Assembly: GCF_011764565.1 (NCBI RefSeq)
Contig: NZ_AP022871.1
Location: 9,672,320-9,736,319 of the forward strand
DNA from: Phytohabitans suffuscus
GTDB lineage: Bacteria > Actinomycetota > Actinomycetes > Mycobacteriales > Micromonosporaceae
DNA: 64,000 nucleotides
Reading direction: 5' to 3'
Part shown: in pieces, positions 15,050 to 33,802 of the stretch
How positions within the stretch are numbered: the stretch's first letter is position 1
How the letters are laid out: each line of letters starts with the position of its first letter
Translations under genes and position numbers: made by a program
The notes under the pieces: model-generated
Told to the model about the DNA's origin: nothing
The model's database searches: none
What the model saw: the letters and a program-made list of their open reading frames with translations, nothing else

Positions 15050-16278
15050 GTAGACCGTCGCTTCTAATCGCCGTGAATGTTTGGTAGGTCTTGCCTGTCG
15101 TGAGTCGATGAGGGCAGGAGGACTGGTGGCGCGTAGGCGGGTCCATGCGGTTGTGCTGGACGCGGGGCAGCGGGTGAGGTTGAGGCAGGTCATTGGGTCG
15201 GGCAGGAGTTCGGCGCGGTCGATCGCTCGGGCGCGGATCCTGCTGGCTCTGGACGAGTCCAGCGGGGTCGTGCCGGTCCGGACGCAGGTTGCCCAGAGGC
15301 TGGATGCCTCGGGTGACCTGGTCCGGTCGGTCGCCGAGGCGTTCACGACCTACCAGGACGTGGACCTGGCTATCGGCCGTAAGAGTCGGGTCACGCCGCC
15401 GGTGGAGCCGAAGGTCACCGGGGATGTCGAGGCGCGGGTGACGGCGTTGGCGTGCTCGGCCCCGCCCGAGGGTTACTCGCGGTGGTCGTTGCGGCTGTTG
15501 GAGAAGCACGTCGCGTTGCTGGACGACGTGCCGGGCCTGGACCACTCCACGATCGGGCGGGTCCTGAAAAGGGGGCGCTCAAGCCGCACCTGAAGGCGTG
15601 CTGGACCATCCCACCGCACGCCAACGGTGAGTTCGTCGCCGCGATGGAGGATGTCCTGGACGTCTACGCCCGCCCGCTGGACGAACGCTTCCCGGTGGTC
15701 TGCATGGACGAGAAGCCGTACCAACTGCTGGGCCAGGTCCGCGCGCCGCTGCCGGTCGCCCCGGGCAGGGCCGCCCGGCACGACAACGAGTACGTGCGGC
15801 AGGGTACGTGCGCGATCTTCGTGTTCACCCGACCGCTGGCCGGGTGGCGGCGCGTCCAGGCCCTCCCGCAACGCACCCGCGTGGACTGGGCCCACCAGGT
15901 CCGTCAACTGCTGGACGTCGACTTCCCCCACGCCGAGAAGGTCGTGCTGGTGATGGACAACCTGAACACCCACTCGATCGGATCGCTCTACAAAGCCTTC
16001 GACCCCGCAACCGCGCACGCTCTGGCCCAACGCCTGGAACTGCACCACACACCCAAGCACGGCTCATGGCTCAACGTCGCCGAGATCGAACTGTCCCGCC
16101 TGACCCGCCAGTGCCTCGATCGGCGCCTGGACAACCTCGACACCCTCAACGCCGAACTGGCCGCCTGGCAGAACGCAACAAACACCGACCAACGGCAAGT
16201 CGACTGGCACCTCACCACCCACGACGCCCGAACCCGACTCCGCCACCTCTACCCAGCCAATTAGAAGCGACGGTCTAC
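15050..16278 (+). mobile_element. IS630-family insertion sequence
   Basis: 1229-bp element with perfect inverted ends (GTAGACCGTCGCTTCTAAT at 15050-15068 and the complement at 16260-16278) flanked by TA at 15048-15049 and 16279-16280, the target duplication expected of IS630/Tc1-mariner elements. It abuts the MITE directly, having inserted into the CTAG at the MITE's right edge. Confidence 0.88.
15126..16264 (+). CDS. IS630-family transposase (frameshifted)
   Basis: Start GTG 15126 follows an AGGAGG ribosome site. The N-terminal half carries the HTH region ([18 protein letters not shown], then [19 protein letters not shown]); the C-terminal half, in another frame, carries the DDE core: [32 protein letters not shown] and the [18 protein letters not shown] block with the catalytic Glu. 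The shift is at AAAAGGGGG (15567-15575). Either a missing G, as in many genes of this window, or a programmed -1 slip on AAAAGG, known in IS630 elements, would fuse the halves as [12 protein letters not shown] or [12 protein letters not shown]. About 380 residues when joined. Confidence 0.85.
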
Positions 16279-25951: not shown

Positions 25952-28828
25952 CTACCGGGTGAACGCCTGGAACTCCGCGACCCGGACCTGGGCCGCGAAC
26001 GGGCTGGCCGTGGCGCAGTCCGTCACGGTGGCCGGGTCGGCGTCCTGCTCGCCGGCGTAGAACGGGTTGCCGGTGCACTGGCTCGCCAGCACCTCGAGGC
26101 GCAGGTGGGTGGCGGGCGTCGGGCTGAACCGGAACTGCCGCAGGTTGAGCGACGGCGCGGTCGGCCGGAAGCTGCCGGACGGGAACGCGTCGGCCGGGCT
26201 GCGGTAGACCCGCCGCCAGCCGGCGTCCGTGGCGCAGTCGGCCCTGGTGGCGTCGCAGGCCCACACCGCGAACGAGCGGAGCGCGGTGAACCGGTTCTGG
26301 GTGTTGGGGTCGGCGTCGCCGGCGACCGCCGGGCGCAGCAGCGCGCTCACGTTGACCACGCTGACCTTCTGCGGCAGGTCGCCGGCGAGGTCGACGGTGA
26401 GCGTGCGGCCGGCCACGCCGTCGAGCGAGGCCCAGTTGGTGCCCTCGGTCTCGTCGATCAGCCGGTCCAGGTTGACGCCGGGGCCGCTGACCGTGGCGCC
26501 GGCGGCCGAGGAGGCCAGGTTGCGCGGCAGGTTGACCTTCAGCTCCTGGGCGCGGCCGGCCAGGAAGAGCGTGCTGAACTTGCGGTGCCCGTACCCGGGG
26601 CCGGCGGCGACCAGGTTGAACTGCTTGCCGCCGACGATCTCGAACGTGTCCGGCAGGTCGGTCTCCGGGTCGGTGTCGGCGACCGGTACGGCCCGCGCCT
26701 CGTAGTCGCCGACGTACAGCCGGATCGGCGCGCCCTCGGAGTCGCCGAGCGGCCGCAGCGTGACGGTGGCGTTGCCGCCGTACGGGGAGGCGAAGCTCGG
26801 CACCGGGTCGGCGTCGCTCGGGCCGCTGGTGGCATCCCGGCCCATGCCGGCCTGGGCGAACGCGTTCCACATCAGCTCCTGGTTGGCGCCGCCGAAGCGG
26901 ACCAGGTCGGCGGCGAGCATGTTGTCGCGCATGTCCAGCATGCTGAACTGGCTGCTGGCCTGGAGCAGGAACGAGTCGAACATCAGCTGCGCCCAGCGCC
27001 GGTTGCCCGGGCACGAGGTGACCTCGACGGCCCCGTCGGCGCAGCGGGCCTGCAGCGACGGGGTGCCCTTGCCGTACCTGGCCAGGAACGCCTCGCGCAG
27101 CCGCACCTGGGTGGCGCTCCAGATCTCGCCGTCGGCGTGCACCTGCTGGCCCACGAGGTCGTACCCGACGTCGGAGTAGTTGAGCGGGCTGCGGGTGGAG
27201 TCGTAGTTGCGGATGCCGTTGGCGTTGTTGCCGGTGACGTAGGCGCCGGTGACGAACTGGCTGTCGCCGGGCGCCCGGAAGCCGTACTCGTACAGGTACT
27301 CGGCGGCGAGCAGGTCGCCCCAGGACTCGCCCATCGCACCGCCCTGCGCGGAGCCGATGCCGGTGTCCGGGCCGGCGATCATGCGGTTGGTGATGGCGTG
27401 CGTGTACTCGTGGCCGATCACCGTCATGTCGTAGTCGCCGTCGACGCAGGGCGGGTACGCCGCGCCGGCCTGCGGCTGCCACAGGAACATGTTGGTGCTC
27501 GGCGGGAGGCCGTCGCGGCCGGTGCCCTGGTTGGCGTTGTTGCGGCTGCCGCCGAGCGCGTTCGCCTGCGCCTGGCCGGTCTCCGGGTCGCCGCCGAGCC
27601 CTTCGCCGGACACGTTGACCACCTGCATGTTCCAGGCCGACTCGGTGAAGCCGAGGTTGAACGCCCAGTCGTGCATGCGGTTGTGCATCGCGAAGAGGTT
27701 GGCGGTGGCCGCGTCGGCGTCGTTGCGCTGGGCGGAGGTGAAGACCGCCGGGTTGCAGCGGGCCTGCCGCCACTGGTCGGTGAACGGGTAGACGTACTCG
27801 CGGGCGGGGCTCGCCGTCGCCGGTACCCGCGGGGTGCCGGCGCCGAGGCTGAGCGCGCTGTCGGCCGCGTTGCCGCGCGAGGTGAAGGTGGGCAGGCCGG
27901 TGGCGACGTCCACGTCCCACGCCTCGCCGGTGTTGGGGTCGCTGACCGCCTTCACGCACCGCCCCTCGTCCTGCTGGCACCAGAGCACGCGCGGGTCGCG
28001 CCCGGCGCTGGCGCTGGCCGGCGGGGTGGCCGGGAAGACCGCCCAGCGGGGGTTGTCCGAGTCGAAGTCGACGAGGTCCTCGCGGACCAGCACCTGCCCG
28101 GTACGACCGTCCACATAGGTCGTCACGGCGACCGGGTCGGCGGCGGACGGGGAGGTGAGCGTCACCGCGTACGCGTCGCGCGGCCCGCCGGCCGGCGTCG
28201 GCACCGCGACCCGCCGCACGTCGCTCGTGCCGGTGTCCGCGCCGAGGCCGGCGTTCTCGCGGGCGATCGCCACCGCCACCGCCTCGCTGAGCGTCGCCGG
28301 CTCGGGCACGCCGGTGTCCCGGGACAGCGACGAGGTGACCCGCAGCGCCTTGCCGCCGGCGACCAGCACGGTGACGAGCCCGTCGTGGCCGGCGGGCAGG
28401 TCGCCGAAGCGCTGCCGCAGCGTCACCACCGTGCCGCTGCCCATCGGGCGGACCAGCAGCGGCTCCAGCGCGGCGACGGCCGCCTCGTCCAGGCCGAACA
28501 GGTCGCGGTTGCCGGCCAGGTAGGCGCGGGCGGCCGCCTCCGGGTCGGCGGGCAGGCCGACGGCGAGGGGCTTCGCGCCGCCGCCGAGCGCGCTGGGCGT
28601 ACCCAGGATGTTGAAGCGGACGTCGCCCAGCGCGCCGGCGCGGGCGCGCTGCGCGGCGTCCGGTGCGACGGCGCCGCCGCGGTTGTCGAGGTCGAGGGAG
28701 AGGTGCTTCTCCCCCGCGAGGCTCAGGTCGGGCGGTGCGGCGGGCGCCGCGGTCGCCGATCGGGAGAAGGCCGGCGGTCCGGCCAGGAACACGACGGCGG
28801 CGATCCATGCCGCGGCCACTTTGCGCAC
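25952..28828 (-). CDS. Secreted M36 (fungalysin-type) metallopeptidase
   Basis: 958 residues. GTG 28828 lies 5 bp after AAGGGGGA and yields a signal peptide (KVAAAWIAAVVFLAGPPAFSRSATA). A long FTP/PepSY-type propeptide precedes the M36 catalytic domain: TANLFAMHNRMHDWAFNLGF, zinc motif HEYTH (H473, bases 27398-27412) followed by GESWGDLLAAEYL with the third ligand. The C-terminal ~250 residues form a discoidin-like domain (VNLDRLIDETEGTNWAS, LRLEVLASQCTGNP). Exported protease, probably nutritional; no autoregulatory element noted. Confidence 0.92.
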   Translation of the reverse strand: MRKVAAAWIAAVVFLAGPPAFSRSATAAPAAPPDLSLAGEKHLSLDLDNRGGAVAPDAAQRARAGALGDVRFNILGTPSALGGGAKPLAVGLPADPEAAARAYLAGNRDLFGLDEAAVAALEPLLVRPMGSGTVVTLRQRFGDLPAGHDGLVTVLVAGGKALRVTSSLSRDTGVPEPATLSEAVAVAIARENAGLGADTGTSDVRRVAVPTPAGGPRDAYAVTLTSPSAADPVAVTTYVDGRTGQVLVREDLVDFDSDNPRWAVFPATPPASASAGRDPRVLWCQQDEGRCVKAVSDPNTGEAWDVDVATGLPTFTSRGNAADSALSLGAGTPRVPATASPAREYVYPFTDQWRQARCNPAVFTSAQRNDADAATANLFAMHNRMHDWAFNLGFTESAWNMQVVNVSGEGLGGDPETGQAQANALGGSRNNANQGTGRDGLPPSTNMFLWQPQAGAAYPPCVDGDYDMTVIGHEYTHAITNRMIAGPDTGIGSAQGGAMGESWGDLLAAEYLYEYGFRAPGDSQFVTGAYVTGNNANGIRNYDSTRSPLNYSDVGYDLVGQQVHADGEIWSATQVRLREAFLARYGKGTPSLQARCADGAVEVTSCPGNRRWAQLMFDSFLLQASSQFSMLDMRDNMLAADLVRFGGANQELMWNAFAQAGMGRDATSGPSDADPVPSFASPYGGNATVTLRPLGDSEGAPIRLYVGDYEARAVPVADTDPETDLPDTFEIVGGKQFNLVAAGPGYGHRKFSTLFLAGRAQELKVNLPRNLASSAAGATVSGPGVNLDRLIDETEGTNWASLDGVAGRTLTVDLAGDLPQKVSVVNVSALLRPAVAGDADPNTQNRFTALRSFAVWACDATRADCATDAGWRRVYRSPADAFPSGSFRPTAPSLNLRQFRFSPTPATHLRLEVLASQCTGNPFYAGEQDADPATVTDCATASPFAAQVRVAEFQAFTR

Positions 28829-32597: not shown

Positions 32598-33665
32598 CTA
32601 GCGGCGGTGCGGGCTGGGGCGGCGGTCCGTGGCGTCGGCGGCGGCGCGGCGGGCGCGGATCGACTCGCCGATCGTCGGCAGGCTGATCATCTGGGTGGGC
32701 GCGGAGAGCGCGGCGCGCAGCCGGTCCTCGCCGGCCGGCGGCGTCACGCCGGGCGGCGGCTCCTCGGGGTGCGGCAGCGCCTCCCGGGCCAGCAGGTCGC
32801 GCCAGCGGGCGGAGACCTCCTGCCCGGCGGCCAGCTCCTCGCCCCGCCGCAGCAGCTCCCGGTCGTCGGCGGCGCGGCGGCGGCGCCGGTTGCGCTCGGC
32901 CGCGTCGCGGGCCACCTGGCGGGCCATCGCCGCGCCCCGGGACTGCCCCGGCGGCACGGCGACCCGGCTGCGCCGCAGCCACTCCTCGCGCGCCGCCTCC
33001 TGGGCCGCGACCACCTTGCGCCGGTTGTCGGCGATCTGCCGGTTGACCGGGGGCAGCGGGCCGTCGTCGGCGTCGAGCCAGCCGCGCAGGCGCCGCTTGA
33101 GGTACGCCTCGGTGGTCCTGGGGTCGGCGGTCGCGGTGGGCATCTCGCCCTGCTGGGCCTCGCCGGTGGGCAGGTGGTCGAGCGCGTACAGCACGTCGCG
33201 CGGCGTCCACCCGGTCTCGAACCACAGCTGCAGCAGCACCCGCAGCCGGTCGCTGCCCGCGCGGCGCAGCGCCGGGGAGACGTAGCAGAGCCACTCGCAG
33301 GCCATGAGCTGCTCGGTGTACCCGTCCGGCACGTCGTGCATCGGCCACTGCGCCGGGGGCCGGCCGAGCGGGTGGCAGGCGCGGCACTTGCGCGCGCCGC
33401 CGGTGTCGCGCACCATGCGGTCGCGCTTGTCGCACCGCCCGCACCAGGCCCGCCGCCGGTACGGGTCGTCGTCGCGGCCGGCCAGCGGGTTGCACCTCTG
33501 GCAGCGCCGCCCGTCGGCGGTGAGCCGGGTCCGGCGGTGGCACTCGCCGCACCACCGGCGCGCGTCCTCCACGGGGGCGGCCTCGGGGTGGCAGGCGGTG
33601 CAGGCCCGCCCCTCCGGGTCCGTGCGCGAGTGCGGGTCACACCCACCGCACCACGCAGAACTCAC
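32598..33665 (-). CDS. Protein with three tandem zinc ribbons, unknown function
   Basis: 355 residues. The first ~110 contain three repeats of a four-cysteine ribbon: WCGGCDPHSRTDPEGRACTA, WCGECHRRTRLTADGRRCQR and WCGRCDKRDRMVRDTGGARK, each ending CxxC(H/N)P. A helical middle (DGYTEQLMACEWLCYVSPALR, WFETGWTPRDVLYALDHLP) resembles small replication or DNA-binding helical domains, then a long Arg/Ala-rich, probably coiled segment (about 210-290) and a tail. GTG 33665 is the start just before the first ribbon. I recognise no named family; nucleic-acid binding is an inference. Confidence 0.6.
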   Translation of the reverse strand: MSSAWCGGCDPHSRTDPEGRACTACHPEAAPVEDARRWCGECHRRTRLTADGRRCQRCNPLAGRDDDPYRRRAWCGRCDKRDRMVRDTGGARKCRACHPLGRPPAQWPMHDVPDGYTEQLMACEWLCYVSPALRRAGSDRLRVLLQLWFETGWTPRDVLYALDHLPTGEAQQGEMPTATADPRTTEAYLKRRLRGWLDADDGPLPPVNRQIADNRRKVVAAQEAAREEWLRRSRVAVPPGQSRGAAMARQVARDAAERNRRRRRAADDRELLRRGEELAAGQEVSARWRDLLAREALPHPEEPPPGVTPPAGEDRLRAALSAPTQMISLPTIGESIRARRAAADATDRRPSPHRR

Positions 33666-33744
33666 CCCACCGTTCTACACCCTCGCCCCGCCCGCCTCAG
33701 GCGTTGTCCGGTATCTCCCCCTTCACGCGTGTCGCCGTCCCTTT

Positions 33745-33802
33745 CCGGGGGTACGGGGTACGGGGTTACGGGTTCCTGGGGTACGGGTTCCCGGGGTACG
33801 GC
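33745..33802 (+). repeat. G-rich tandem GGGGTACG/GGGTTACG repeat
   Basis: A ~58-bp run of five to six GGG-containing units (GGGGTACGGGGTACGGGG and variants with GGGTTCC) between the zinc-ribbon gene and the next gene. The evenly spaced G3-4 tracts could fold as a G-quadruplex on the + strand. It is 70-125 bp upstream of the ATG at 33871. Confidence 0.6.

Follow-up and report, generated by a model that had tools for sequence, protein, structure and literature searches.

The locus studied here raises the question of what a chromosomal protein does when it combines three zinc-ribbon-like motifs with a body that resembles no named family. It lies in a 64,000-nucleotide stretch of a 10.15 Mb contig of Phytohabitans suffuscus, which we call the window. 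A first-pass annotation made from the sequence had described three tandem WCGxC ribbons, suggested that they arose by duplication and left the helical body without a family. It advised profile searches, structure prediction and neighbourhood analysis, and regarded a clear match to a known replication or recombination family as fatal to its reading. It gave no strand for the ORF, which runs from 33665 to 32598 on the minus strand and comprises the following features.

32598..33665, minus strand: whole gene, GTG start, 355 aa, stop included, computed pI about 9.6
33585..33653, minus strand: zinc-ribbon-like motif 1, residues 5–27, WCGGC..CTACHP; absent from the congeneric copy L007
33486..33554, minus strand: zinc-ribbon-like motif 2, residues 38–60, WCGEC..CQRCNP
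33369..33446, minus strand: zinc-ribbon-like motif 3, residues 74–99, WCGRC..CRACHP
33048..33350, minus strand: helical domain, residues about 106–206, containing GWTPRDVLYALDHLP; common to the C-terminal domain of winged-helix plasmid proteins
32778..33047, minus strand: basic helical stretch, residues 207–296, with modelled helices at 207–232 and 243–296
32601..32777, minus strand: variable C-terminal tail, residues 297–355, shortened in P. flavus (L006) and in L007

A conserved chromosomal gene

A simple gene-finder favoured a later start at 33572, which would lose ribbon 1; the GTG at 33665 was kept because ribbon 1 is conserved in relatives. The full-length query matched 20 of the 200 genomes in the family sample, its own included, several of these matches being partial. 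Long matches occurred in four congeners (G103, G091, G077 and G031) and a contig-end fragment in G057, and the nearest named relatives are P. flavus and Phytohabitans maris. The gene is accompanied in the window, G103, G077 and G091 by homologues of the genes at 25952, 29238 and 30099, which we read as encoding an M36-type peptidase, a universal-stress-type protein and an ATP-dependent DNA ligase. Because these neighbours are kept in the window and three congeners, and the four syntenic copies give pairwise dN/dS values of 0.17–0.24, the ORF is a genuine gene and no chance frame. The G031 copy (L007) lies at a different genomic place, is non-syntenic and has two ribbons; pairs that include it gave values of 0.34–0.58. 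The three-ribbon form of Phytohabitans is chromosomal, syntenic and under purifying selection.

Neighbourhoods were read with a gene-finder based on a simple codon-position score, gene names being assigned by eye unless a Pfam match is cited. No par, integrase or transfer gene was recognised near the window gene, so that the neighbourhood analysis advised at the outset yielded a syntenic chromosomal locus free of recognisable element genes. A domain-profile search of the own genome returned no second convincing copy, the only match besides the gene itself (E 0.12) being taken as chance. The lack of element genes, the flanking order kept in the window and three congeners and the purifying selection all count against the gene being an active or decayed initiator of an element integrated in Phytohabitans. 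We consider that explanation very improbable, even with divergent-ribbon genes of other Micromonosporaceae lying on contigs with ParA, ParB or FtsK.

The ribbons

Three tandem ribbons in the motif order first described are indeed present within the first 99 residues, where their 12 cysteines occupy positions 6, 9, 22 and 25, 39, 42, 55 and 58, and 75, 78, 94 and 97; two further cysteines, 123 and 127, fall in the body. Three CxxC..CxxC units arose in none of 20000 shuffles of the protein. The ribbons are 41–52% alike, a likeness for which the motif itself accounts in part, and on this basis the suggested duplication is likely and offers a plausible origin for all three. The same three-ribbon arrangement was found in G103, G091, G077 and L134, a 44% identical orthologue from another genus that keeps all 12 ribbon cysteines. 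Other Micromonosporaceae carry either one ribbon of the same type (L008–L013) or one divergent CxxC..CxxC unit (L014, L016–L020 and L136–L139), whose second pair reads CRRC[HN] in L014–L020 and differs in L136–L139.

The window protein has the paired CxxC in each unit, conserved in relatives, and would on that pattern be expected to bind zinc; no Pfam zinc-ribbon model exceeded its cut-off for this protein. AlphaFold2 confidence was low over residues 1–100 (block means of 39–60), compared with 72–93 for residues 111–200. That the ribbons bind nucleic acid or protein, as the first-pass annotation supposed, is plausible.

A CxxCH motif may also signal haem, and weak Pfam matches to the c3/c7 cytochromes, the best at E 0.023 and all below the curated cut-offs, would suit a multihaem c-type cytochrome in which CxxCH binds haem instead of zinc. 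This reading fails because the histidine is not kept: motif 2 reads CQRCN and L014 carries CRRCN, so that CxxCH does not occur at every site. Each unit, moreover, has a second conserved CxxC, and inspection found no N-terminal hydrophobic stretch; we give the cytochrome hardly any credence.

The helical body is shared with winged-helix plasmid proteins

Searches of the window protein against Pfam, NCBIfam, PHROGs and PDB sequences returned nothing significant at E-values up to 10, in keeping with the statement that the body has no nameable family. Its relatives emerged from other collections. A tblastn search of PLSDB matched 12 plasmid records, with the aligned parts of the query confined to residues 95–242. 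The phages collection gave no match to the window protein and single-protein scans of the viral_contigs collection no relative; two alignment scans of the latter gave 5 and 7 loci, overlapping. An hhalign comparison of the three-ribbon alignment with winged-helix proteins of virus-collection contigs reached a probability of 99.0% (E 2.2e-18, 112 columns). This profile comparison establishes homology between residues ~107–210, and with them the body of the protein, and the C-terminal domain found in winged-helix proteins of actinobacterial plasmids. The profile search thus replaced a body of no family by a shared domain.

Among 16 aligned domains, A, L and W positions are invariant and G, W, D, A and P positions nearly so. 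This 16-row alignment (A2) served as the profile for genome samples, in which it found the domain in 34 of 394 genomes at class level, 24 of 354 at family level and one of 396 at phylum level, the own genome being counted in each and standing alone in the last. The domain profile finds nothing in G050, so that the match of the full-length query there, L022 (E 3e-4), appears to be due to chance. Neither the window protein nor the relatives scanned gave a significant match to the domain in Pfam, NCBIfam or PHROGs, the better database matches of the relatives falling in their N-terminal HTH; the winged-helix plasmid proteins, which look like replication initiators, come close to what the first-pass annotation regarded as fatal, but they form no known, curated replication family, and no clear match to a known replication or recombination family emerged. 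We found no description of the domain in the open-licence literature, most subscription papers lying outside the scope of that search.

Structure prediction modelled the body as helical, with good confidence over residues 111–200, the ribbons remaining of low confidence and no PDB fold being matched. Helices were modelled at residues 116–129, 138–150, 155–163, 182–194 and 207–232, with a long one at 243–296; net charge across residues 207–300 is about +9. Residues 101–232 modelled alone had a mean pLDDT of 88.4 and a pTM of 0.78. Foldseek against PDB and viral models gave no match at E 0.001 or better, and VIA, run with the whole model, gave Z-scores of at best 4.8 on the long helix and 2.8 within the domain; with the domain alone it gave 2.4. 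Given the absence of a fold match for the domain, its structure gives no clue to function; nor does the PDB search thereby show that the predicted fold is new.

Architectures that carry the domain

The winged-helix plasmid proteins and the window protein share the helical domain and differ in what precedes it: an N-terminal winged helix in the former and three ribbons in the latter, for which Pfam gave no HTH match at E up to 10. The single-ribbon and divergent-ribbon proteins of Micromonosporaceae join a CxxC..CxxC unit to the same helical domain, with one ribbon instead of three. A further group, the MAEFRISS-type proteins (f19), has the same domain (hhalign 96.9%, E 1.3e-10) behind an N-terminal part that lacks a ribbon, and its scanned member L061 had no Pfam hit. 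In the class sample, 29 loci had extracted ORFs, of which 28 were read: 9 have an N-terminal half that we read as a winged helix and 19 a MAEFRISS-like N-terminal part.

The winged-helix type is the form met on plasmids and integrated elements. The f19 proteins, which are not, occupy a conserved chromosomal locus, where a neighbour read as a purine nucleoside phosphorylase was common to 11 of 12 neighbourhoods. Matches to f19 at E below 1e-49 occurred in 35 of 150 genomes of that actinomycete family, and any match in 52 of these 150. The MAEFRISS-type locus in L080, L081 and L104–L113 includes genes read as a nucleoside phosphorylase, an aldolase and an aldehyde dehydrogenase.

An unrooted tree of the domain (66 rows, 124 columns) united the three- and one-ribbon proteins in one clade (97/88) and the divergent-ribbon group in another (100/99). 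Every ribbon or f19 architecture formed a single clade; the winged-helix rows did not. With 124 columns for 66 rows and no root, the tree does not settle the direction of descent.

Ribbon-plus-domain proteins also occur in element-like settings: the divergent-ribbon gene of L143 lies directly before ParA and ParB, and that of L145 is on a contig with ParA and FtsK. In two genomes, genes for 105–119 aa proteins that look alike by eye adjoin divergent-ribbon genes (L143:10436-10753 and L144:8957-9316). These small proteins had no Pfam match at E 0.01 and possibly act as partners.

The plasmid setting of the winged-helix relatives

One winged-helix plasmid relative matched 60 PLSDB records at 63 places, and 59 of the 60 best matches reach the domain; H141 is the single record matched outside it only. 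Arthrobacter, Paenarthrobacter, Kocuria or Micrococcus account for 44 of the 60 records. Three plasmids with the gene (L025, L026 and L114) also have an annotated tyrosine integrase, and in L086, L090 and L091 the gene adjoins what look by eye like integrase genes.

CopG-type ribbon-helix-helix repressors precede rep in rolling-circle plasmids, and a ribbon-helix-helix ORF followed by the gene and then by ParA is a usual layout of a rep region. Of 20 held-out winged-helix loci, 11 showed a short ribbon-helix-helix-like ORF upstream of the gene, versus none of 30 ribbon or f19 loci, some held-out rows being close kin of each other (L035/L037, L039/L040) or of a profile row (L150 of L151), and the controls being chromosomal as read except for the element-like L143 and L145. 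Held-out loci were counted because the profile had been built from 15 loci chosen for showing such an ORF. It left out the first choice of L117, which was unrelated; L077 was excluded from the count as the same element as L084, and E-values were computed for a nominal 100 sequences. Four of the nine held-out loci in which the ORF was missing (L026, L036, L135 and L089) had less than 0.8 kb before the winged-helix ORF. Pfam weakly supports the identification as a ribbon-helix-helix protein: of ten upstream ORFs, one exceeded the cut-off (Arc, L153), and three matched at E 0.002 or better below it. On a Kocuria rosea plasmid, a 71 aa ribbon-helix-helix-like ORF (L152:2368-2583) is labelled rphB (rifampin phosphotransferase) by PLSDB, which is probably a mislabel.

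In eight of 19 plasmid neighbourhoods (L024, L028, L030, L094, L116, L117, L150 and L153) ParA follows the gene in the same orientation at a distance of no more than 3 kb, and in five of the 19 at no more than 1 kb; on Kocuria pCE7 and on p2 and p3 of Rothia terrae the distance is within about 220 bp. ParA was absent within 3 kb downstream in the remaining 11, among which L096, L149, L151 and L152 had less than 3 kb of downstream sequence. The winged-helix gene is thus often accompanied by an upstream ribbon-helix-helix-like ORF and a nearby ParA, and it sits on plasmids or integrated elements, whereas the window gene lacks both companions (best upstream-ORF match E 2.6 within 2600 nt) and is chromosomal among syntenic neighbours. 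No clear iteron array was found beside eight mobile relatives, where repeats were weak and limited to two or three copies.

Database matches of these proteins point in two directions. All six mobile relatives compared with Pfam had weak HTH-type matches, only L024 exceeding a curated cut-off (HTH_IclR and HTH_24). PHROG families named replication initiation match the N-terminal half, the best at E 5e-6 (L024) and most weakly, and transcription regulators in PHROG and Pfam match the same half. Existing annotation calls several plasmid copies GntR or BlaI/MecI/CopY family regulators and others hypothetical or HTH proteins. In Paraoerskovia pNBRC108565a the annotated HTH gene (L028:5255-6519) is off the domain-coding frame, a mismatch due to a frameshift or sequencing error.

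The regulator annotations, the transcription-factor type of the HTH and PHROG matches and the occurrence of the Phytohabitans and f19 forms outside replicons would all fit a family of transcription regulators, in which partition or transfer genes would be the targets of the winged-helix forms on plasmids, and the ribbon form would be a regulator on the chromosome with no link to replication. The mostly weak PHROG matches to replication initiation families speak against this, as do the succession of ribbon-helix-helix ORF, gene and ParA, which is usual for a rep region, and the presence of the gene on plasmids with no other recognised rep. We regard a purely regulatory family as possible but unlikely.

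Plasmids without a recognised replication gene

The last point concerns Antarctic Arthrobacter. According to a 2018 study (PMC6305408), a replication system was recognised on pA2H1 only among 11 unique plasmids, and Mihasan 2015 is cited there for the conclusion that current knowledge probably does not allow identification in silico. Our PLSDB search placed the winged-helix gene on seven of the ten plasmids without a recognised rep (MH067969, 71, 72, 73, 74, 75 and 77), two of which are nearly identical to each other by that study; the other three lack the gene, and so does pA2H1, with its recognised rep. For pA19BH1, pA40H1 and pA58H3 no domain match was better than E 0.009, in a search that genes spanning the record start would escape. 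On pA40H1 a gene for a 633-aa MarR-annotated protein (L100:28386-30287) ends at the record end and so adjoins the ParA at the record start; this protein is possibly a different initiator.

Further plasmids qualify the picture. For the linear plasmids pLMA1 and pLMA7, the authors state that replication genes are present, leaving them unnamed (PMC5823993); pLMA7 carries the winged-helix gene, and therefore 'unrecognised' may not fit this plasmid. On Kocuria pCE7, the winged-helix gene and nine other genes of unclear role were compared with Pfam, and none matched a known rep family above cut-off. Another pCE7 gene (28102-28797) matched Replic_Relax at E 0.001, below the cut-off, and is a possible competing rep candidate.

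Among known replication proteins, DnaD/DnaB_2 (PF07261) initiators and helicase loaders have a winged helix in front and a helical domain behind it, a general plan that the mobile relatives share. A closer relationship is unsupported: the own genome had no PF07261 matches at E 0.01, 2 of 14 control genomes being matched, and comparison of the domain model with PDB folds gave no fold match. RepSA, RepAM (DUF3631) and Prim-Pol belong to the same kind of host and element as the mobile relatives, and RepSA, RepAM, Prim-Pol and RepPP are the replication proteins named for actinomycete integrative elements in PMC3218068. The six mobile relatives had no Pfam match to RepAM (DUF3631) or Prim-Pol, their matches being of HTH type with weak others that included RepL (E 0.06 and 0.24, below cut-off); RepSA is not a Pfam model in the table of PMC3218068.

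Proposed role of the ribbon protein

We propose, with a probability of about 0.5, that the window protein is related to a mobile-element family resembling replication initiators and is itself fixed on the chromosome. It probably derives from an unrecognised plasmid initiator family. The broader proposal, to which we would give slightly less than even odds, is that the winged-helix relatives constitute the unrecognised initiator family (ribbon-helix-helix regulator, initiator and often ParA) of many Arthrobacter, Paenarthrobacter, Kocuria, Rothia and Nonomuraea plasmids and integrated elements. Their C-terminal domain would have been fixed on actinomycete chromosomes more than once with a new N-terminal module, here three ribbons, giving a host protein able to act on the same replication partner. 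No replication assay of any relative was found in the open-licence literature, and we infer the initiator function of the winged-helix proteins, together with the direction of descent and the chromosomal role of the window protein.

The three ribbons stand where the winged helix of the relatives would be. In the most likely mechanism they would, together with the basic helices, bind nucleic acid or a partner protein. The helical domain would make the contact that plasmid relatives would use at the origin, either self-association or the recruitment of host replication proteins, and the chromosomal protein would in this way modulate replication, segregation, expression or a similar DNA transaction. 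We do not file it as an initiator, because it lacks the winged helix, the upstream ribbon-helix-helix ORF, ParA and any element gene; it is most simply taken as a host relative of the winged-helix family in which ribbons replace the winged helix. The unrooted domain tree agrees with this account, each of the other architectures forming one clade and the winged-helix rows none, though it does not give the direction.

Tandem CxxC ribbons, basic helices, a pI about 9.6 and chromosomal conservation in Phytohabitans would also suit a zinc-ribbon protein associated with RNA, ribosomes or RNA polymerase, whose helical domain serves protein contacts. Its domain relatives sit on mobile DNA, however, and the family searches linked it significantly to neither ribosomal nor RNA polymerase proteins, which leaves such a protein distinctly improbable. 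The domain marks one candidate rep gene on seven of the ten Antarctic plasmids and on 59 PLSDB records, where a role in replication is directly testable. The initial observation is confirmed and the body explained as a shared domain with no significant Pfam, NCBIfam or PHROG match; for the function, the ribbon protein gains a first hypothesis.

Further observations in the window

The intergenic sequence upstream of the gene contains imperfect repeats spaced 15 bases at 33743–33801, with three 29-nt copies in register (GTACGGG/TTCCGGGG). Two consecutive plus-strand ORFs at 15153–16264 were read by eye as a split IS630-type transposase, and a further transposase-like piece, also read by eye, lies at 1931–2233.
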